This document shows positions 3,457 to 53,293 of a stretch of DNA of 64,000 nucleotides, piece by piece (the first letter of the stretch is position 1; each line of letters begins with the position of its first letter). This DNA is from an uncultured Candidatus Altimarinota bacterium (GTDB taxonomy: Bacteria > Patescibacteriota > Gracilibacteria > BD1-5 > UBA6164), in assembly GCA_937944145.1 (NCBI GenBank), contig CALDZK010000004.1:1-64000 (forward strand), read 5' to 3'. The notes beneath the pieces were generated by a model that saw only the letters and a list, made by a program, of their open reading frames with translations, was not told the DNA's origin and did no database searches. Position numbers and translations under genes: made by a program.

Positions 3457-3656
3457 ATCAGAGATCTACTTACTCCACTTCACATCCTAGATGAAAGCAC
3501 CAATCATACAAGTTTTTACAATAGTTTACTATCTAAAAAATATTTACTGTAGTTGTCAATAAGAAACATCTCCCATAGATCTAAAATATCTTGCTCATAA
3601 TAAAGTATATATGTTAGCGTAGTAATAAGTACTTACTCACTAACACCTCCCATGCT

Positions 3657-6600
3657 ATGAAGCAAACAGTAAAATACAAACAGATACTCGCCCATATCTG
3701 TCTCTATTCGATGGTACTCCAAAACCTTGTTTTTGTACCGATAGGTCACGCTGGTGATACTGGAGAAATACTTGATTCTAGGATAAAAACTCAGCAAGAA
3801 CTCTTTCCTCAAAATCACAAAGATATAATCTCTCAAGAAATACAAATCCCAAAAATATCAAATGAAGCAGAGATAGCAAACGACATAGACTTCATAGAGG
3901 GATTAGGGGCTTTTCTAGAAGAAGACAAAAAACAAGGTAGTACAAAACCTGTAAGCAAAACAAAAGTACTCGAATCTGAAAAACTCGACTATGTAAACTC
4001 TCAAAAAAGTACCAAAGATACCTACTCGAAAGAAAAAATCATAGTAAAATACAAAGAAGGAAAATCTATCAGTGGAAGAATCCAAATAAGAAATAGCATA
4101 AAAAATGAAGGTATATCTGGAATCAAAATGGAAACTCTCAACAGTCTAGATATAGGGGTGATATCCATGTGAAAAGAAATACAAAATATAGAAAAGACTG
4201 TCAAAGACCTAAATTCTCTCCCTCATATAGAATACGCAGAACTCGACTACGCACTCTCACGTCAAGATCTCACATGAGTTCAGAGTAGTGACCCTAGGAG
4301 TATAGAACAATGGCATCTGAGATCTATATCAGCTGAATCAGCGTGGGAGGTATATGATGACACGAGCTCCCAATCTATCGTTTCTATCATAGATACCTGA
4401 GTGGACTACCTTCATCCTGACCTCGTTGGAAACCTCCAAGATCTCTCAAGCGAATGTAGGAGTTATACAGGAGCAGTGATCAGTTCATGATGTCCTAACC
4501 ATGGAAGAAATTTTGAAGATGGTTTTTTTACACTCTTTGATCGAGACGAGACCTTTGACATCTCTGGACATGGAACACATATAAGTGGAGTGATATGAGC
4601 TACTAGAGATAATAATATAGGTGGTGCAGGAGTGACCCAAAACGCAAAACTTATCCAAGCTAGAACAGATACATACAATGCTCTTTTTCAAACATTTTTT
4701 GTCTCTGATTCGATAAAAGCACTCGATTTTGCTATACAAAATAATACAAAAGTTGTAAATGCAAGTTATGGAGGGACTTCTTTTTCCCAAGCCGCACATG
4801 ACTCAATAGACAGGGCCAGACAAGAATGAATACTCTTTGTAGCTGCAGCATGAAACAATGGGGAAGATAATGATAGTGTTGCTTTTTATCCAGCAAACTA
4901 TGATCTAGATAATATCATCAGTGTTGCTGCTCTTTCTGCAAATGACACACTCCCTGCGTATTCTAACTACTGAGCAAATCAAGTAGACATAGCAGCTCCA
5001 GGATGAGATATAACAAATGATGAAACAGGGGAAGGAGGTATACTCTCTACCTATCCCGGACAACAAACTGTATTTTTAGAGGATTTTGAAACTGGATCAT
5101 GATTTACCGTGACAGGTACAGGATCTGACTGGTATCTGTATGGATGAGGGGTAGGAATACACACTCAAGAACCTCTGTTTTATACTGGAGGGGTTGATAG
5201 TATATTGACCTTCAATGACGTATTTTCTCTCGACTGAGCAACTGCGTGAACTGTCGAATGAGTAGTAAGTTGTAGTTTTTGATCTTTTGGAATCTTTGAT
5301 AGCGACTTTTGAGATGAGATTAACTTTTTTATACATGATAGAGACTTAGGGACAGATAGGTTCGTAGGTGGAGCATTTACGAGTGATCCATGAACAGCAA
5401 GTGATTTTAGGTTTAAAATACCTTTTACTGATCCTACTCTCATGAGAGACAATCTACAACTCAGGGTACAGTTTTTCACCGATCAAGATGACGACGTCGG
5501 AACATGATGTCTCCTGGATGATATCGAAGTCATCTCTCACAACAAAGACAATCATGGTTACAAGTTTATACAAGGAACTTCATTTGCTGCCCCTATAGTA
5601 GCATGAGCTGCTGCTATGGTATGGAGCTACAATCCTGAGATGGGATATCAAGAAGTAAAAGACATACTCCTCACAAGTGGTGACGACATCTGACTCCAAA
5701 GCCAGATCCTCACGGGGAGAAAAGTAAACCTCAACACATCTATACAAGAAACTATAAATAGGTATGGAATCATTCAAAGTGGAAATTTCATATGATCGAG
5801 TTTCTCTGCTCCAGTGATCGATCTAGACGATAAAAGTATATCTCTATCTGGATCCACTATTCAACTCCAAAGTACGGGAACATCTATAAATCTACAAAAC
5901 AATGCTTCTATAGAATGAAACGGGGAAATACATATCTCTACAGGCTCTGAGCTCCTGAGTGGAACGGGACAAATACTCGCAACATCAGAAGACTTTGATG
6001 TGTTTTTCTATGATAGCTATAACCAAAACATCACGAGTGAAGATCAAGTAGTGTACGGACAGTGAGTATATCTATCATACACTGGAGCTCTCAGTGGAAC
6101 AGGGGTACAAATCCAAATCGGAGATATATACCAAGGCGAAATACAACAAGACCTATTTATTCCTCTAGAGGAAAGCTTCTCTGGAAGTCTCCAATATAGA
6201 GTATATGCAGACTGAGATACTCTGGACAGAGTCTCCTCTGGTATAGAAGTTCAAGTCCTTCAAGGAAGTACTCCTAGTATAGACTTTCGTGAATCTGAAG
6301 AACATTTCGAAGTAGAAATCACACCAAGTCAAGTAGAAGTATGACAAAGAGCTGACATACAAATAACAGCCATTGGTCTAGATGGAAATACTCTAGAGTG
6401 ATATACCTGATCTATAAATATAAGCAGTGGTACAGACTCTGGAGTTGTTTTTAGTAGTGAACTCTGAGGAAGTCCATATGTATTTCAGGCGAGTGACAAT
6501 GGACAAAGACTCTTTGAAGACAGTGTAGAGTTCTCAAGTGAAGGTCTTCATAGTATCAGCGTCAACGATACAGATAATACTGAAATACAATGAAGTACTA

Positions 6601-28767: not shown

Positions 28768-31700
28768 TTAAGAAACCACTCTCAAATTCTCCTCTTCCCA
28801 ACATTTCACCCCCTCCACACTCGCCACACTAAACTTCGTATCTACCTCTTGCCCTGTCGAAAGCTGTATAAATACTCCTATACCTCATGGCTTTTCTGTC
28901 GTTAGGAAATCTTTGAGTTTATTCAAATCATCTTTTTTTGCAATTGACGGAATCTGTATCACATACTTTAGTTCTTCTGGAGCAAGCTCTGCCTTTATTT
29001 CCTTATTTTCAGAAATCTTTCCCTCAAGTTCTTTTTCAAATTTTGTATCTTCAGTCTTGTCCCCCTCTCCTTTGAGGAGAGGACCAGGGTGAGGTATAGT
29101 ACTATCCTCTTGTTCCTTTCATACAACAGGTATGAGACTCTTTCTCACAGAGTTATCAAGCAGACCCATGTCACGAGCCTGAGCACGAACCTGTGTCAGA
29201 GTTCCTACATTTGCTGTCTGGAGACTTACTGCTTTTCTATTGTAGTTTGGATCTATCATCGCACGTCCCTCTACTACTATGACCTTTCCTATATCGACCT
29301 TGTTTTTATAATCATCAAAATACCTATCATAGATAGTAACTTCAAAATCATAATCAAACCCTTCGCAATAAAGAAACATCATATTTTTCCCTGTTTTAGT
29401 CACGATTTTTCGAGTATCGAGGATCACTCCTATAGCCTTGAGTTGGGTCGCTCCGATGTCTTTTTTGAATTTTTCTTCATCTGCTTGTTGCATCACTGTC
29501 AGTTCCTCCATAGACATCTTGAGATATCTGACGTTGGTACTACGACGTCCACAGTAGGTCTGGAGGGAATCAAGTGGGTGACCAGAAACCATAAATCCCA
29601 TCACATCTTTTTCTCCAAAGAGTTTTTGCTCATAAGTAAATGGTTTTACTTGTTGGAGCTGCAGTGATTCTTTGTAGGTGCTTTCTGACATATCAAAGAG
29701 ACCTATTTGAGAAGATTCTTTCTTCTTCTCCAGAGCACGGCTATAACGAATCATATTGTCGATACTACTCAGAAGCATATTTCTCTCTCAGAAGTCATCC
29801 ATAGCTCAGGCAAGTATCAGAGCTTCGAGTGCTTTTTTATTGGTCACTTCTTTCCCTCATCTCTCGATAAAATCAGAGATATTTTCAAACTTTTGATCTT
29901 CTCTCGCTGTAATCATCCCGTCTATCGGTCCATCCCCGAGCCCCTTGACAGCCTTGAGTCCAAAACGAATATTTTTGTCATCGATATAGGTAAAGTGTTT
30001 GAGTGAGTGATTGACATCTGGAGGGAGAATATTGATACCTTTTGATTGAGCCTCAGCTACTTCTAATGTGATCCTGTCCATATTTTCCTCGTCACACATC
30101 ATGAGTGCCGTGAGAAACTCTGTAGGAAAGTTTGCTTTGAGATATGCTGTCTGATAGGCAATATACGCGTAACACGCAGCATGGGATTTGTTAAATGAAT
30201 AATTTGCAGCAGGCTGTATCATCTCCTCATAGATATACTGACTTACTTCTGGCTTATATCCTCTGAAACTCTCAGCTTTTTCGATAAATTGTACCTTTAT
30301 CTCTTCTATAACCTTGGCTATTTTTTTTCCCACTCAACGTCTCAGGAGATCTGCCTCTCAGAGGGAAAAACCTGCCATATACTGTACGATAAACATCAAT
30401 TGTTCCTGGTAGACAGCAATACCATAGGTGACATCAAGTATCTTTTTGAGATCTTCTTCGAGTTTATTTTTTTGTTCTTCTATTTCCTCGTCTGAGTATT
30501 TTTTCTTTTTCATTATCGCTATCAGATCGTCAGTCATGTAGACAATATCTTCTCTCCCGTATTTTCTGTCTATATACTCTGGGATATAGGCCATAGGCCC
30601 TGGACGATAGAGTGACACCATCGCGATGATATCCTCGAAACTATCTGGTTTGAGGTCTTTAAGGTATTTTCTCATCCCATCAGACTCAAACTGAAATACT
30701 CCGGTACTATCTCCTTTTGCAAATACTTCATATGATCCCGTATCAGAGATATCTATATGTTCCATATCTATCTCAATTCCTTTTGTTTCTTTGACGATTT
30801 CTAGAGTTCTTTCAATAATTGTCAAAGTGCGGAGTCACAAAAAGTCCATTTTTAGCAGTCCTAGATCCTCAAGTGGGTAAGCACTGTACTGTGTCACGAT
30901 AGACTCACTATCTTTTGGTGGACGGGCAAGAGCTGTGAATTGCGTCATAGGCTCTGGAGCTATGATCACTGCACAGGCATGTACTCAGAGTTGACGAACA
31001 TTTCCTTCTATCTTGAGTGCATTGTCTATAATATCCTTATATACAAGACTACTTTCGTATGCTTGTTTGAACTCTGGACTTTCATCCAGTGCTCCTTGGA
31101 GCTTGGTTCCTGGTTTTTCGGGTATGAGTTTAGCAAGTTCATTCATCTCTGTAAATGGTATTCCTTTGACACGACCGACGTCTTTTACTGCAGCACGTGC
31201 AGCAAAAGTCCCAAAAGTACAGATCTGTGCTACGTGGTCCTCTCCATATTTTTGTCGACAATAGTCTACTACCCTATCTCTTCCAGTATCAGAAAAATCC
31301 GTATCTATATCAGGCATAGAGATACGAGCAGGATTGAGAAATCTCTCAAAAAGCAGTCCATAATCAATAGGATCGAGATCGGTAATACCTGTCAAATATG
31401 CCATCAGACTCCCCGCAGCAGAGCCACGTCCTGGTCCAACAGGGATTCCATTTTGACGAGCCCATCCTATATAGTCGGCTACGATGAGAAAATACCCATC
31501 AAATCCCATCTCATGTACTACTACCAGTTCGTATTCGAGACGCTCTATACGCTCTTGAAACTTCTCTGGAAGTTCTTTGAGTATTTTCTTTTTTTTGTTA
31601 GAATAATAGGTCAAAGAAAGATCTTTGAGTTCTTCTGGGGTAGTTTCTGTCAGTTTTTTTTCAAGACTCGGTTTGTCAGTTTTTTGAAGCAGATCAAAAA

Positions 31701-32703
31701 TAGTTTCTTCTGGTATATCTGTTTTATACCTCCAATTCAGTCCTTTGAATGAAAGATATCTCAAATACCATTCATCCGAGCTTAGTTCTTTCCAATTTCC
31801 CGTTTGCTTTGTTTGATACTGCTGCGCTCTCTCAAATATAGCCTGATCAGCCTCTGGAAGCTCAAAGCGAGGAATAAGTATATCCCCCATAGGAATGTCT
31901 ATATCAACTCTATCTGCGATCTTTTGCGTGTTTTCCAGAGCATTTGGTATATACCCAAAAATTACCTGCATCTCTTCCTCTGAGAGCAAGCTGTAATCAC
32001 CGTTTATAAGGGTCGGTCTATCGGGATTTTCGATTTCATAACCTTTTCACAGGGCCATAATAACATCCTGTGTCGACTTGTCGTCTTTGTCTACATAGTA
32101 ACAGTTGTTTGTAGCAACAACGGGGATATCATAAGTATTATGAAACTCTATGAGTTTCTCTGTGATAAATTTTTGTTTTGGAACATCATCATGCTCAAGA
32201 AGTTCTAAAAAATAATTTTCTTCTCCAAATATCTCCTGATACTTTTTTATACGCAGCACTACTTCCTCATCAGATTTCCCAGCAAGTATATAGTAGGCAA
32301 TCTCTGAACTTGCCGTTCCACTCAAACAAATAATATCACTCGTATACGCAGCTATATCCTCCAAAAGTATTACAGGGGTTCTTCCAGGATTATCCAGACT
32401 CCCTTTTGATATGATCGCGATGATATTTTTGTATCCTTTGAGACTCGTAGCTAAAAGTACCAGTTTATGACTCAGGTTTTGGTCCAGTTCTGATTGTACA
32501 AATACTTCTGCTCCGAGAATCGGGTTAATACCTTCTGCTTTACAAGCTTTATAAAACTCATGGCACCCATGGGTATTTCCAGTATCAGTAATAGCCAGCG
32601 CTGTCATCCCGAGCTCTTTGGCACGTTTTACATAATCCTTAGGCTTTGGAAGGCCCTCGAGGATGGAGTAGTGTGTATGATTATGTAGGTGAACAAATGC
32701 CAT
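28768..32703 (-). CDS. dnaE: DNA polymerase III alpha subunit
   Basis: Replicative polymerase, 1,311 aa, with the DnaE rather than PolC layout. The PHP domain is first (FVHLHNHTHYSILEG). The palm has GRGSAAGSLMAYLTG and the catalytic aspartates in MPDIDTDFSD (about residues 465-469). The fingers/HhH region follows (YRPGPMAYIPEYIDRKYG, NKSHAACYAYIAYQTAYLKA). An OB-fold region (KNMMFLYCEGFDYDFEV) precedes a charged C-terminal extension. At least nine TGA=Gly codons break it into five fragments under the standard code. It contains no 3'-5' exonuclease domain, so a separate proofreading subunit would be needed. Confidence 0.96.
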
Positions 32704-32800
32704 GAAATTTCCGTTAATAATTCTCCTATGAGTCTATTTATTTTTGGAAAAAGAGCTATGAGAACTATACTCTTTATGTTTATAATTTGTGTAAAAATAC

Positions 32801-33475
32801 ATGCCTATAGAAATAGGATCTTCTTGGAAAAAAGAACTCTCTGAGGAGTTTAAAAAACCATACTTCTCTGAAATAAGAACTTTTCTGAAATCTGAAATAG
32901 AATCATGAAAAACTATATACCCTCATCCGAGTAATATATTTCATATTTTCAATATTATCCCGTTTGAAAAAGTACGTGTCGTGATTCTCGGGCAAGATCC
33001 CTATCATGGTCCAGGACAAGCTCATGGGATGAGTTTCTCCGTAAGGGAAGGGACAAAAATCCCTCCAAGTCTGAGAAATATATACAAAGAAATATCCTAC
33101 GAATACGAAGATATAGAGTTCTCGGAAAATGGTGATCTCACTACGTGGGCACAGCAATGAGTGTTTCTGCTCAACGCTATACTCACGGTCGAAGCCAGTA
33201 AGCCAGCCAGTCATAGTAAAATCGGTTGGGAAAATTTTACTGACGCAGTTATTAAGAGGATTTCATCTGAGAGGGAAGGGGTTGTGTTTTTATTGTGGGG
33301 GAATTTTGCGAAAACAAAAAGACCTCTGATCGATCCATCCAGACATCTTGTCCTCGAGGCTCCACACCCATCACCATTTTCCGCGCATAGTGGATTTTTT
33401 GGTTGTGATCATTTCAAGAAAGTGAATGCGTATCTCAGAGAGAATGGAGAGAAAGAAATTGATTGGAGAATTTAA
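32801..33475 (+). CDS. ung: Uracil-DNA glycosylase
   Basis: 224 aa, family 1. Removes uracil from DNA. Catalytic motif [22 protein letters not shown] (Asp of the water-activating loop) and the minor-groove loop [16 protein letters not shown] are intact. [10 protein letters not shown] is also family-typical. Two TGA=Gly codons. Divergent from dnaE with a 97-bp gap. Confidence 0.96.
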
Positions 33476-33503
33476 TTGACTTTTTTTATAAAAATATTAT
33501 AAA
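33476..33503 (+). promoter_or_regulatory. Sigma70-type promoter for the 33538 gene
   Basis: TTGACT at 33476-33481, a 16-bp spacer and TATAAA at 33498-33503. It begins at the base after the ung stop codon. Confidence 0.6.
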
Positions 33504-33537
33504 TCTATAATATAATTCTAAATTTATCTAAAATTCC

Positions 33538-34239
33538 ATGCCCTATACAGAAACGCATCCACTTCTTTACGATGGTACTCCTTCATGAAAAATTACAGAA
33601 ATAGAAGAACATATTATAATTCGTGATAATACAGGAAAAGAAATATCACGAGTATTAAATGATGGAAAAAATGGTGTATGGAAAACAAGTCCAGTAGGAA
33701 TTGGTATCGGGGAGGTAGTACAGATACTTGGAAAACAGAGGGCTGAAATTATAAGTCAAAGTGTATTTGACCAAGGTTTTGGCAACCTCTTTCAAGGTAT
33801 AAATGCAAACGCATGTGCCCAAAATCCTATACAGATATTCTGAAACGACACAAATCCCAAAGCAAAAACACAAGCCCTAAAATCTGCAAAAGAAAATAAA
33901 CTTCTTGTAACTCCTATACTCAGTGAATTATGTGATTTCAAAGAGTTTACCGATCATATTCAACTCGCTATCTCAAACATGCCCCAGACTCCACAGATAC
34001 CAGAGTGAGGTTCGGCAGTACAGAGAAGAGCAATGAATGATTTACTAGAATATTTACATCCCAAGTTTCTTCTATTCAAGGATGTTTGATGGGCTGAGCC
34101 AACATATGATATCTCTGGGCTCGATAATTATATGATAGAGAAAGTCTGAGAAATGGATATAAAAAATCCTTACTCCGAAGAGGTCACAGACTCTCACGCA
34201 TCTATCTATCTCGCAGAAAGAAAGTATACAGAAATATAA
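33538..34239 (+). CDS. Hypothetical protein, 233 aa
   Basis: Starts MPYTETHPLLYDGTPSGKITE. No signal or membrane segment. An N-terminal beta-rich segment (HIIIRDNTGKEISRVLNDG) is followed by a helical middle and the segment GGSAVQRRAMNDLLEYLHPK. Five TGA=Gly codons. Own promoter; its TAA lies 5 bp from the convergent cyclase stop. Family not recognised. Confidence 0.6.
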
Positions 34240-47434: not shown

Positions 47435-48853
47435 CTACTTTCTCATGCTCTCAACCAACTCTCCCCACTCATTTTTAGGTTTTTCAGCTATCTCGGCTCT
47501 ATCTGGAATTTGAGGGAAATTTTTTCTCTGATCCTCTGGAGTGTTTTCATCCCAGTAGAGGTCAAATTGTTCCGGGACATAACAAGAAATCAAAGGTACT
47601 CCATCAAATATATTATTTCCATGACGATTTCATACACATGCTATAGCAACTACTTGACCACCTGCTTCCTCTATCATAGACTTCATTTTCCTGAGGGTAG
47701 ATCACTTCGTGACAATATCCTCAGAGATAATGACTCTTTGCCCTCTCAGTTCTATATCATGTCTCTTGAGCTTCATCTGCTCATTATCATCTCATGACTT
47801 CTCTGTATATACGGATTGCTCTATGCCGAGTTTTTCTGCGAGATATAAAGACGAACGGACACTTCACATCTGAGCCCCCATCACTACATCAGCCTCTATA
47901 TTTTGAGATCTGATTTTTTGAGCTAATTCTCAAGCAGCTTTTTCGACAACCAAATAGTTTCTTTCGGTGGTACCTATATTTATATAAGCATTGCTCAGGA
48001 GCCCACTTGCAAGCCTACAATACTTTCCTCACTCAGGACAAAAGTAAAACGCTCCAATATATGAGAGTATTTCTTTCCAGTCTCCCGTGTAGAGCATCTT
48101 TTCAAAGTGATATTTTTGCTCAGGGATATATTCGACATCTTTTACTTCACTAAAAAATCTCGTAATTGATTGAGATACATCTTCAGTCTCAAGTATCGGT
48201 CTTCCCATGACGATATTTGTAGCTCCATGACGAATTGCTTCTGCTGGGGTCATAACGCGTTTTTGGTCTCCAGTATCTCCTCCTGCAAATCTGACTCCAG
48301 GAGTTACGATATCGAAGTCACTCCCGTAGACTTCTCTGAGAACTAATCCTTCATACGCAGAACATACGAGTCACTGTATTCCTGAGTCAAGAGCGAGTTT
48401 CGCGAGTCTGAGAACAGAGTGCCTCGCAGTATTATCAAATACATATCCCGTATCATCATCATCAAGCGAAGTCATAGCCGTAATTCCTAGGAGTTTGATG
48501 TGTGGCAAATATTCATCTTTTGTAGTTTGAACGAGTTTGAGCATGTCTGCTCCTCCACTGGTATGAACGGTGATGTATTCGACCTTGTCTCCCAGTCCTG
48601 AGTTCTTAAGTTGGATAATATAGTTCTTGAGCGTATTTGGTATATCGTGCCATTTTGGGTCCAGCATGAATTTGCAGTCTACTCACTCAAAGAGTTTTTG
48701 TATACCGGTAAATCCTATCAGGGAAACGATATCGTGGATCTTGAAAATAATTCTGTTTTGGTACTCTGTATTTTCCGAGAGAATATTTTTCATTATTTGT
48801 AGTGCCTGCTCAGGATAGAGATTATCGAGGGCTATTATGAGTTTTGCTTGCAT
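47435..48853 (-). CDS. pyrFE: Fused OMP decarboxylase - orotate phosphoribosyltransferase
   Basis: 472 aa doing the last two steps of UMP synthesis. Residues 1-250 are OMP decarboxylase: AKLIIALDNLYPEQALQI, the catalytic array MLDPKWHDIPNTLKNYI (DxKxxDIPNT) and VTPGVRFAGGDTGDQKRVMTP. About 260-472 is OPRT: ECPEGKYCRLASG-type linker, SGLLSNAYINIG, VVMGAQMGSVRSSLYLAEKLG, then GQRVIISEDIVTKGSTLRKM as the PRPP loop. The order is PyrF then PyrE, the reverse of animal UMP synthase. Many TGA=Gly lie in the OPRT half. 22 bp downstream of the second Tat-like gene. Confidence 0.93.
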
Positions 48854-48875: not shown

Positions 48876-49835
48876 TTAATTCGTAAGTTCTTTTGGTTGA
48901 ATTATCTGCAATAGTCTTCCAGAATACAAGAGTTCATATGACTGTACAGGAACGAGTCACGAGTGTGTCTCCAAAAAATACTTCAAAGGCATACTGTCCC
49001 CTGGGATACCTAGTTTTTTCTGTATTGGTTCTTGTTGTATTCTTTGTAGTTTTTGTTGCTTACTTCAGATGCTATCTCCGAGAAAATCCCCATCATTATG
49101 AATTTTTTTGAGTACGTCTGACTCAGACATATCATACATCTCAAATGCTTTTTCAGCATCCTGCGTCCTTAGTCAATAAATAATCCATCATATTCATCCA
49201 AGTTCATATATCATATCGACATAATAGTGAAACCCTCATTTACTCTCTGAAGATTCAGGAATCCAGTCACACATAAAGTCTATATATCCCCAATCAAATT
49301 GTTTTTCTGGTAGTTGAAAATGTAGACTACACATTTGAGAAACAGATCATGGCTTATTATGTAAATCTATAAACCTGAAGTACTCATCTGCGTCAAGAAA
49401 CGATGGTTCTATTTTCATGTCTGGAATTCTATTTTGAATATCTCCTGGTAATGTATCAAAATACTGTGTAAATAATACTTTTAAGCCCTCAGCTTGCTGC
49501 TTATAATTCTCTATTATCCAGTCACGCACAGATTCTTTTGATACTTCCCCGAGATTCAGCCTATCTGCAGATCAAAACATTGTAACTGAAAACTCATGAG
49601 CTTCGCGTAAATACGAAGAAAGGTATCACGGGTATTTTTTCATCCCTTGGAATAGTTTTTCTATTTTATCAAGATCGACTGATGTCATGTTCATAGAAAT
49701 ATCCACTAAGGATTTTTTGGAAGTTGCTATAACATCTTGAACTGTTACTGGAACAGAAGTTGAAACAGCAAATCATGTAAGTCATGACAAGAACCCTCTT
49801 CTACTTATAGATGTTATATCTCAAGGTTTATTCAT
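48876..49835 (-). CDS. Tat-signal-like hypothetical protein between the ATP-grasp fusion and pyrFE, 319 aa
   Basis: The N-terminus ITSISRRGFLSGLTGFAVS is a good twin-arginine signal pattern (SRRxFL plus hydrophobic core), implying export of a folded protein. The mature part is helical, with WIIENYKQQAEG, YFDTLPGDIQNRI and SFLDADEYFRFI, which align by eye with the protein at 43479-44384. Then come QFDWGYIDFMCDWIP, a run of TGA=Gly (ELGGIGWIIYG) and an extension to LQIIQPKELTN. Function unknown. 15 bp after the fusion gene and 22 bp before pyrFE. Confidence 0.65.
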
Positions 49836-49850
49836 AATTTTAAATATATT

Positions 49851-52247
49851 TTATGAGAAAAATGGAGTCTTTATATCTGCCTCGGGAATATCCATCATAC
49901 CAGATTCGTCTATCTCCTGAAGATCTCCAAGGGCTATCTTTCCTCGGTAGAGTTTTTTTAGGTCTCATCCAGAGTTCATATAGTTACTGACTGCAAGATA
50001 TCCATTGGTATAGACAACATCTTTCATAAAAATCCCTTCTCTACTTGGGTCCTTGAGTCATCTCTTGAGACGGAGCATGTAGCTAAATACTCTTTCATAA
50101 TCATCACTGTAAAACTCTGCGAGTCTTCCTATGAGTCTCCTATAGGAATGTTTGAGTGCGTACTGAACAAAATAATATCTCTCAAAAATAGAATAAAATT
50201 TCTTGTCTTTATTACTGATAAAACGCATCTGGTTATAGATAGCGATTCACTCCTCTGTTTCTGTATATCCTGCCGTACCTCTCGAGAACATCTGGTATTT
50301 TGAGAGTTTTCCATTGATCTTTCTGAGGTAATGTCCTTCTATTTCATGAGCCACAATAGAGCGAAGTTCTCTCTTTCCTACGCTTCCTCCACTACGAAGT
50401 ATCAGCTCATCACCCTTCATAGTAAAACGTGCTGTTGCATCTCTCTCCACGAGACGCGCTTTGATGCTGTAGATATGGTTAAACTTTTTGAGGTAGTCTT
50501 TTATATCTTCAAAATACAAAAGCTCATCTTCCTCATGTATATTGTCTCTCTCATCGATGACAGATTTTGCGTAATCAAAATTTTCTGATTCTATTGATCA
50601 AAATATTTTTTCTGAATACTGTGTCATCGCTGAACCATCTTGCTCCATAAATGCTGCAACAAATAAAAGTTTGTTTTCTATCTCTTGTTTCTTTCTCTGA
50701 TAGAGTCCTCCTAGAGGAATATCTGGAATCTCGATATTCTTGAGTTCCAAAAGGAGTGTATCAATATCAAGAGTGATAGGGTTGTACTCAAACTCTGGGA
50801 TATGCTTCCCTTTTGACTGAATAAAAAGATGCTTTTGCTCAGATATATTTGTTGGGGTAACGATCTTGAGGAGAATGATTTTCTTTTCTATTTTTACAAG
50901 CCTCTTGTCTATATCAGTAAGCTGGTTTTCATGAGTTTTTGTGATGGCTGTATTTTTTGCTTTGGGTCATTCTCAGTCACCCAAAATAGGGGTTTGTCCC
51001 TTTTTATATTTAAAAGGATCTATGAGAAATCCTTTGAGAGAACCTAGTCCAAGGATAATATTGGTATCCTCGAGATCCTTCACGACAAACCTCATAGATT
51101 TTTGGACTCAGAGTATTTCACAATCAAGTTTTATCTTAGTTGTATCATTTTCTGGTATTTTCAACACATCTCTGACAAAACTGCGAGAGATGTAACTCGA
51201 TGACTGAGAGACACGTACATTTGCAAGATAGGTGTGAGTTTTATCATCCAGAGATATCTTTATGTATTCTTTTGTTCCGAGGACTTTTTTTCCAGATATA
51301 TTTTTGATCTTTTCTTCTATATCTCCAGAAAACAGATCTCTTCCGAGACGAACTCATTTTTCTACCGAGCTCACTTGGATTCACTCAACACGTTTGAGAC
51401 GAGATTTGAGTGGAGCAAGATTGGCAACTTGCACCTCGAGTCCAGCACGGATATTCATCTCGAGTAGAAGAGGTCCATCGCGTTCATCTATCACGACATC
51501 ACATCCAAGATACCCTATATTTGTAACTTGCTGCACTTTTACTGAGAGATGTAGTATCTCATCCCAGTGAGGCAAGACAATTCCTCGTACATCCCCGATA
51601 CCTGGGATAGATTTTACTATTTTTGATCCTTTGGTTATATAGGTCAGTTTTCCAGTTCCTATATCGATTCCAACTCCACAAGCTCCCCCATGAAGATTTG
51701 CCTTCCCTCCAGATTCTTCTGTAGGGATACGCATCATAGCCATGACTGGGACCATGTTGTAGCAAATAACTCTGAGGTCTGGAAGTCCGTATTTTCCTAG
51801 GAGTTCTATATCTTTTGTGAGAACAATTTTCTTTTCGATTACTACCATATCCCTCCCACCAGAAAGTGAGAAAAATCCATCGATAATATAGTGGAGATGT
51901 TCTTTAAATTCACTACGAGTAAAAACTCGCCCTGTGTTTGTTACTAGGTTCCCCTCAGGATTTTTTTCTTCAAACACATAGATCCCCTTTCCTCCATATC
52001 CGTTGTTTGGTTTCACTACAAATGGAGGTTCTAGCGTATCGATGACTTCGTCTTGAATCTGTTTGTGTTTGGTGAAAATAGCGAGTGTTGCAGGAACTGC
52101 GATCTTGTGATTTTGGAGAAATTCTTTTGTCTTGAGTTTGGAGTCAGCGAGTCTACGAGATATCGCAAAATTATTGGACTTTATGTATTCCAGATTTCTC
52201 GCATTTTGCCCGAGGAGTCAGTAGTCTTTTCGAAAAAAAATTCACAT
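49851..52247 (-). CDS. RimK/ATP-grasp ligase fused to DUF1704 (MATCAP-like) metallopeptidase, 798 aa
   Basis: The N-terminal 300 residues are ATP-grasp: FVVKPNNGYGGKGIYVFEE (P-loop-like), GLPDLRVICYNMVPVMAMMRI, then VIDERDGPLLLEMNIRAGLE (metal-binding ExN). It resembles the alpha-L-glutamate-ligase-like ATP-grasp branch. The C-terminal 350 residues are DUF1704/QEGLA-type: a helical lead-in, ARFTMKGDELILR, the HExxxH motif IVAHEIEGHYLRKING, and SRGTAGYTETEE. The two proteins are normally separate neighbours; here they are one chain. MATCAP proteins remove C-terminal Tyr or similar residues. A ligase and peptidase together suggest peptide or protein tail editing. 5 bp after ftsX. Confidence 0.82.
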
Positions 52248-52252
52248 AGTTA

Positions 52253-53149
52253 TTATTTGAGGTATTTACGAGACGATACAAATCCGCTCATTCATCAGAT
52301 AAGTCCACTAATAGCTAATTGTATCATGAAAATCGCAGCAAAGTTCTGTATCAATCCACTATCTGAGAAGCCAACTGGAAGTACTGCGTCAATACTCTTG
52401 AGTAAAAAGAAAAACAGTATCACACTTACACTATAGGCAGCAACTGAGTAGATTGCCCCCTGTATTCCAAATGGTCCGTATATAAAGAGTTTACTCCCTC
52501 CTACGAGTCTCGTGATATAGATCTCATCTCTATAATAGTAGATAAAATTTCCAATAATCGAATAGATAATTATCGCAATAGAAAACATAAATATCCCTAT
52601 CATGATATAAAGTCCTATTTGGAGGATTTGCAAGGTTCTTGTGACACTATTTATCCTGTTGTATTGCGCGTTATAACTCGAGAAGAAATCCTTGTCTCAT
52701 TCATCAGGTTGCGCGAGTATAGTAAGTTTTGATTGGATAACTGTGTCGAGTTTTGAGAACTGTTCCAGAGCAATATTATTGAGAGAAATAGTTTCTGGGA
52801 GTGGGTTTTGACGCTCAAGAATCTTGACCAGATTTGGGTCCTGTTCACGGATCTCATCGAGTACCTGTTCTTTTGATTTATAGAGTGTTTCTATATTTGG
52901 GAAATCTTGTTTTATTTCACCCAGTAGGGAAATGACCTCTCCTGAATTTTTATTGTATCCTTCTTCGAGATACAGAGATATCGTCAGCTTATCATTGACT
53001 CCATCGATGATGCGAAAACTGACGTCATGAAGCAAAAAGAGGATATTGATAAAAAACATCAACAATGTCAGTACCAGAACCGAAGAAAAACTCAAAAATG
53101 AGTTCCTCATGATGTTTGTCAACGAGTATTTGAAAAGTCGAAGTAGCAT
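52253..53149 (-). CDS. ftsX: Cell-division protein FtsX
   Basis: 298 aa permease-like protein that, with FtsE, controls peptidoglycan hydrolases at division. MLLRLFKYSLTNIMRNSFLSF with the first helix, then an extracytoplasmic domain (SLYLEEGYNKNSGEVISLL). Three more helices follow: YIMIGIFMFSIAIIIYSIIG, QGAIYSVAAYSVSVILFFFLL and IFMIQLAISGLIGG. RLVGGSKLFIYGPFGIQGAI is the family's RLVGAs.. motif. ATG 53149 is preferred to a TTG at 53164. No ftsE in the window. Next gene begins 5 bp after the stop. Confidence 0.9.
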
Positions 53150-53293
53150 GAAAACGAGTATCAAAATAGTATGTCAGATATTGTATTGCGATTGCCCATT
53201 TTTGCAAATAGATACCATGAAAGTAAAATATTTGATTTTTTGAGAGGAAGTATGATAGAATTGAGAGGAATTTAAAAATATAATCATACTGCA

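Follow-up and report, generated by a model that had tools for sequence, protein, structure and literature searches.

A bacterial ATP-grasp ligase fused to a MATCAP-family carboxypeptidase through a degenerate retropepsin domain

The Rlo system of P. aeruginosa consists of the secreted retropepsin RloA, the 7TM protein RloB, which carries an inactive transglutaminase domain, and the ATP-grasp protein RloC, and the three act in one genetic process, since the loss of rloA is rescued by deletions of rloB and rloC (PMC12239564). In a second system, RimK puts glutamates on the C-terminus of RpsF and RimB takes them off, while RimB also raises the RimK ATPase activity fourfold and permits polyglutamate synthesis, and in RimBK, a natural RimB-RimK hybrid, the protease is active (PMC11957791). 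The metallocarboxypeptidase TMCP/MATCAP cleaves C-terminal Tyr, Ala and Glu and acts on tubulin tails (PMC10499314); in the literature searched, the MATCAP (DUF1704/QEGLA) family is characterised only as eukaryotic tubulin tail trimmers.

The protein described here, from an uncultured bacterium of the Gracilibacteria, shares features with each of these systems. As in Rlo, an RloC-type ATP-grasp ligase, a RimB/RloA-type retropepsin and an RloB-type 7TM protein co-occur, but in this protein the ligase carries the retropepsin, apparently dead, in its own chain, and a MATCAP peptidase has been added. The retropepsin is moreover internal to a chain that starts with the ligase and shows no signal peptide by eye, and no inactive transglutaminase was found by Pfam in the RloB-like proteins tested. 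The likeness to RimK/RimB lies in a ligase writer accompanied by a presumed eraser of its own tail, and RimBK likewise unites the two in one chain; however, RimBK has an active aspartic protease N-terminal to RimK, whereas in the present chain the protease follows the ligase and is predicted to be inactive, and there is an additional zinc carboxypeptidase from a different family. With MATCAP/TMCP (KIAA0895L, PDB 7z5g) the protein shares the fold, the HExxxH and EEG zinc site, and C-terminal trimming as the proposed activity, but it is bacterial and fused to the presumed opposing ligase, while animals have their opposing ATP-grasp-like ligases, TTL/TTLL, as proteins separate from MATCAP. As all parts come from known families and a writer-eraser hybrid of another type is already published, the protein is not a new category.

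The window, the 64,000-nt stretch of contig CALDZK010000004.1 that was analysed, contains the following features, all on the minus strand, with residue numbers referring to the 798-aa fusion protein:

52253-53287, minus strand: ftsX (NCBIfam FtsX models), 5 bp upstream of the fusion gene
49851-52247, minus strand: whole fusion gene, 798 aa in code 25, with 11 TGA codons read as Gly
51381-52223, minus strand: ATP-grasp ligase domain, aa 9-289, RimK/RloC type, TIGR02291-like
51984-52013, minus strand: K79-P80-N81 and the glycine-rich loop to G88, assigned from ATP-grasp conservation
51453-51461, minus strand: ATP-grasp ExN metal site E263-N265, both residues in 73/73 fused homologues
51018-51290, minus strand: degenerate retropepsin-like core (RimB/RloA, PF05618-type), aa 320-410, assigned from profile and fold
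51204-51215, minus strand: lost catalytic motif R345-V346-S347-Q348, aligned with DTGA of active relatives
49902-50909, minus strand: MATCAP (former DUF1704) metallocarboxypeptidase domain, aa 447-782, assigned from PF08014 and PDB fold
50331-50348, minus strand: HEIEGH zinc motif, aa 634-639, with H634, E635 and H639 in 73/73
50247-50255, minus strand: EEG motif, aa 665-667, with the third zinc ligand E666; E666 and G667 in 73/73

Under genetic code 25, in which TGA encodes glycine, one unbroken frame of 798 aa spans exactly positions 49851-52247 of the minus strand, while under translation table 11 the frame is interrupted at every TGA. Homologues of equal length exist in most relatives, and since these include standard-code members of the class whose genes have no in-frame TGA, the code-25 reading is independently backed. 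The unusual code, with its 11 in-frame TGA codons, is the only feature that would speak for an assembly join or a frame artefact. Against it, a whole-protein search gave matches in 65 of 99 related genomes, about 60 of which hold the fusion itself at equal length, the TGA-free standard-code genomes among them, and a scan of named, independent genomes added dozens more in Gracilibacteria, Peregrinibacteria and Peribacteria and a few in Magasanik- and Uhrbacteria. The probability of an artefact is therefore negligible, and the join between the halves that the original prediction had allowed for was rejected. An origin from a phage or mobile element was likewise rejected, with no relative found among viral contigs, as was a defence system, for which PADLOC gave only a weak and irrelevant match.

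Around the gene, the order of ftsX followed by the fusion is kept in most code-25 loci of the window's family, and this conservation is limited to that family. Directly downstream of the fusion lies a gene for a 319-aa protein (48876-49835, minus strand) with an N-terminus resembling a twin-arginine signal (SRRGFLSG). The protein scores above cut-off with neither Pfam nor NCBIfam models, and as a candidate partner it was rejected, having no homologue beside the fusion in relatives. Further on, pyrF and pyrE form a single frame (47435-48853, minus strand; OMPdecase plus phosphoribosyltransferase) in a pyrimidine gene cluster.

Both enzymatic halves named in the original prediction were recovered by the domain searches, and the single 798-aa chain with its ExN and HExxxH motifs was borne out. 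In the ligase half, the Pfam family ATPgrasp_ST (PF14397) matches aa 17-288 with an E-value of 9e-57, and the NCBIfam model TIGR02291 (rimK_rel_E_lig) concurs with an E-value of 3e-69; because its score of 233.3 bits falls short of the equivalog cut-off of 314.2, the ligase is, by its profile score, a relative of TIGR02291 and not the named equivalog. The predicted fold resembles RimK (5zct) and ArgX (3vpb), with cyanophycin synthetase also among the fold matches. Within the ATP-grasp domain, K79, E138, D157, R159, D250, E263 and N265 are invariant across 73 distinct fused proteins, as are P80, G83, G86 and G88, while N81 is kept in 71. A RimK-like ligase of this kind probably extends some molecule at its end by amino acids.

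In the C-terminal half, PF08014 (MATCAP) matches aa 475-782 with an E-value of 3e-29 and 102.7 bits against a curated cut-off of 27, and TIGR02421 (QEGLA) also matches, below its equivalog cut-off. The nearest PDB entries in both sequence and fold are those of human MATCAP (7z5g/7z6s), the best Foldseek match being 7z5g (E 1.7e-11, TMt 0.63), and the EEG motif at aa 665-667 has its counterpart in TMCP1/MATCAP (PMC10499314). By profile, zinc motifs and fold the domain is a member of the MATCAP family, with a predicted carboxypeptidase activity. A loss of catalytic residues, which might have undone the original assignment, is not seen in either half, as K79, E263, N265, H634, E635, H639 and E666 are all present in 73/73 fused homologues.

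A different pairing of the two chemistries is found on Shinella plasmids of the Alphaproteobacteria (L133, L134), where an operon encodes an N-formylglutamate amidohydrolase, a QEGLA protein of the MATCAP family and a glutathione-synthetase-like ATP-grasp protein. The operon is alike in placing a MATCAP-family peptidase gene beside an ATP-grasp ligase gene, but the ATP-grasp protein is of another family, an amidohydrolase is additional, and the genes are unfused. The position of the Shinella peptidase gene between the other two, together with the Pfam name of the ligase family, sugar-transfer associated ATP-grasp, would fit a small-molecule chemistry in which the ATP-grasp domain makes a glutathione-like or formylglutamate-related amide metabolite and the MATCAP domain hydrolyses a related amide, with no protein tail involved. 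This is considered unlikely, as the nearest folds, those of RimK, ArgX/LysX and MATCAP, belong to enzymes that take protein or peptide carboxylates as acceptors, and the N-formylglutamate amidohydrolase-like family is not recurrent beside the fusion among the top gene families.

The two-domain description in the original prediction proved incomplete, for a degenerate retropepsin lies between the halves, as indicated by a profile match and by fold matches. On its own, the 157-residue inter-domain segment matched no Pfam family. A profile of the middle segment built from the fused relatives, however, matches the corresponding segments of unfused proteins with 99.9% probability (E 6.5e-34), and 11/11 of these unfused counterparts match PF05618, the RimB/RloA retropepsin-like proteases, while the profile of the unfused segments matches PDB entries 9g58 and 9g59 ('Putative ATP-dependent zinc protease'), the former described as RloA. 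The predicted model of the fusion's own middle segment, with a mean pLDDT of 65 and a higher value in the core, has only retropepsins as its top matches, in the order Ddi1, RloA (9g58) and HIV protease. In the full-length model most of the core at aa 320-410 reaches a pLDDT of 74-91, and the mutual placement of the domains is unsure (pTM 0.51). In the set of proteins compared, DTGA is intact in 29/29 complete unfused relatives versus 0/73 of the fused ones. Since D[TS]G is retained in four fused homologues (L019, L070, L084 and L092), and in only these, the middle domain need not be inactive in every fusion; the flap segment that active relatives have, SSHG with R after it, is absent from the aligned fused proteins, including L070, L084 and L092. 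The middle domain in the window is, by fold and homology, a retropepsin, and appears to be a pseudoenzyme and not a member peptidase.

The unfused ligase was found in 59 of 287 sampled genomes of the phylum. In 19 of the 59, a MATCAP-like gene stands on its own no more than 10 kb away, in 6 cases on the same strand and at 3 kb or less. Moranbacteria-type loci combine RloB with a ligase-retropepsin that has DTG, with no MATCAP nearby. In two genomes (G117, G116) the order is an RloB-like gene, a ligase-retropepsin with DTGA intact and a separate MATCAP, and two others (G292, G141) share this order but have NTG in place of DTG, an exchange of D for N. The INTERMEDIATE states, namely no MATCAP, a separate MATCAP with DTG, a separate MATCAP with NTG, and the fusion with the aspartate and flap lost, are judged from alignment and gene order to be a graded series. 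Its direction would be from the active protease onwards, as suggested by the conservation of DTG in the family and not by a rooted tree. In the tree of the ATP-grasp domain, obtained by a quick search and without an inferred root, fused and unfused proteins are split by one branch with an SH-aLRT of 99.

MATCAP thus seems to have taken over the eraser role from the retropepsin, because DTGA is kept in 29/29 unfused proteins and complete in 0/73 fused ones, and because the D-to-N exchange occurs next to a separate MATCAP. In a staged replacement, a ligase with an aspartic-protease eraser would have gained MATCAP as a neighbour and then within the chain, while the old eraser died and turned into a ligase-activating scaffold; this course of events is put forward tentatively, with the balance leaning somewhat against it. 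No MATCAP fusion, mid-chain dead retropepsin or graded replacement is described in the literature searched, which covered few subscription journals, and the same searches gave nothing on DUF1704 with ATP-grasp or on Gracilibacteria with ATP-grasp. The series also bears on whether the fusion merely secures the co-expression of two enzymes with different substrates, given that the fold similarities do not demand a shared substrate and that the model has no confident domain packing. This is very unlikely, as ligase and MATCAP are repeatedly linked as separate adjacent genes, the fusion is kept across a class, and the decay of the resident eraser once MATCAP joins points to a shared job.

Some loci among the relatives show other arrangements. 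In a fusion-free genome of the window's family (G015:C45:7464-9482; L033, L039), a 7TM protein, an ATP-grasp protein and a PF05618-matching protein are encoded by separate neighbouring genes, a set possibly acquired from elsewhere. Four unfused loci (L097, L099, L124 and L143) have an extra small ORF of about 330-350 aa with a weak ATP-grasp match after the ligase-retropepsin gene.

The 7TM protein appears to be a steady companion of the fusion. The original prediction noted no transglutaminase neighbour, which holds inside the window but not for the genome, where a search for the 7TM partner returned a 504-aa protein matching 7TM_transglut on a different contig from the fusion; in most relatives such a gene is directly upstream of the fusion. 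Across the 99 genomes, the presence of the fusion and of the 7TM family is concordant in 95 (60 with both, 35 with neither, 4 discordant), with a Fisher p of 4e-22 that treats related genomes as independent; counted by genus, concordance is 53/56. Of the 37 long fused loci in relatives, 33 have the RloB-like gene immediately upstream of the fusion, often overlapping it, and among the top gene families of these loci there is no other frequent conserved neighbour. The window's family differs in that the fusion is preceded by ftsX, and in the window the RloB-like gene is not adjacent. Since Pfam detects the 7TM region and not an inactive transglutaminase domain (7TM_transglut only in the genome's own protein, PKD and 7TM in that of G117), 'RloB-like' is a careful name for these proteins. 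A bacterial sugar transferase gene comes immediately before the RloB-like gene in members of the window's genus, this genome included, and of a related genus in its family (L126:922-3911, and likewise L128 and L130).

Alternatively, the fusion could serve synthesis and maturation, with the ligase building a peptide or a polyglutamate-like polymer and MATCAP trimming it to a fixed length before it is used, or exported together with the 7TM partner, so that the two activities would be sequential steps on one product and not on/off switches. RimK with RimB does yield free poly-alpha-L-glutamate (PMC11957791), and the polymer-making cyanophycin synthetase among the fold matches, the constant pairing with a membrane protein and the adjoining sugar transferase gene in the window's lineage all agree with such a role. 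Nevertheless it is rather doubtful, as besides RloB there are no consistently adjacent export or polymer genes, and MATCAP/TMCP is characterised as a protein tail trimmer (PMC10499314).

The reading given about an even chance is a cytoplasmic writer/eraser akin to Rlo. The RimK/RloC-type domain would ligate an amino acid, for which glutamate is the best guess, onto the C-terminal carboxylate of an acceptor in an ATP-driven reaction, and the MATCAP domain, acting as a zinc-dependent carboxypeptidase, would strip C-terminal residues off that tail. The retropepsin, which is the remover in RimB/RloA-type systems, would have been kept without its catalytic aspartate and flap as a scaffold or as a ligase activator, the latter modelled on the activation of RimK by RimB, and the fusion products would work with the 7TM RloB-like membrane protein. 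The proposal that ligation and hydrolysis in one polypeptide point to a reversible tail modification fared well as regards the writer/eraser arrangement, to which the intact sites, the one branch, the occurrence of ligase and MATCAP as adjacent genes in unfused relatives and the precedent of RimBK all lend support. Housing two opposed activities in one chain calls for some control to prevent a futile cycle, and no such regulation was found. In this bacterium the usual target of RimK is not evident, because its own ribosomal protein S6 ends in YMFVNQDA, with no glutamate tail, and S6 was accordingly judged an unlikely substrate.

The fusion offers a direct hypothesis for bacterial MATCAP proteins, namely that they may take off what the ligase adds, and its family would let two unrelated erasers that serve one writer be compared as they occur in nature. 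If the staged replacement is true, MATCAP would have long served bacteria as an eraser paired with ATP-grasp ligases, and the TTL/MATCAP tail cycle of animals would have a bacterial counterpart. The window's own genome encodes, in addition, two tandem divergent MATCAP-like proteins of 517 and 531 aa (G000:C2, about 31025-34234; L127:2026-3579 and 3640-5235), of which the first, but not the second, exceeds the Pfam cut-off; these could act on other things, and their genes lie near an apparent lytic transglycosylase gene and dnaA, as judged by eye.
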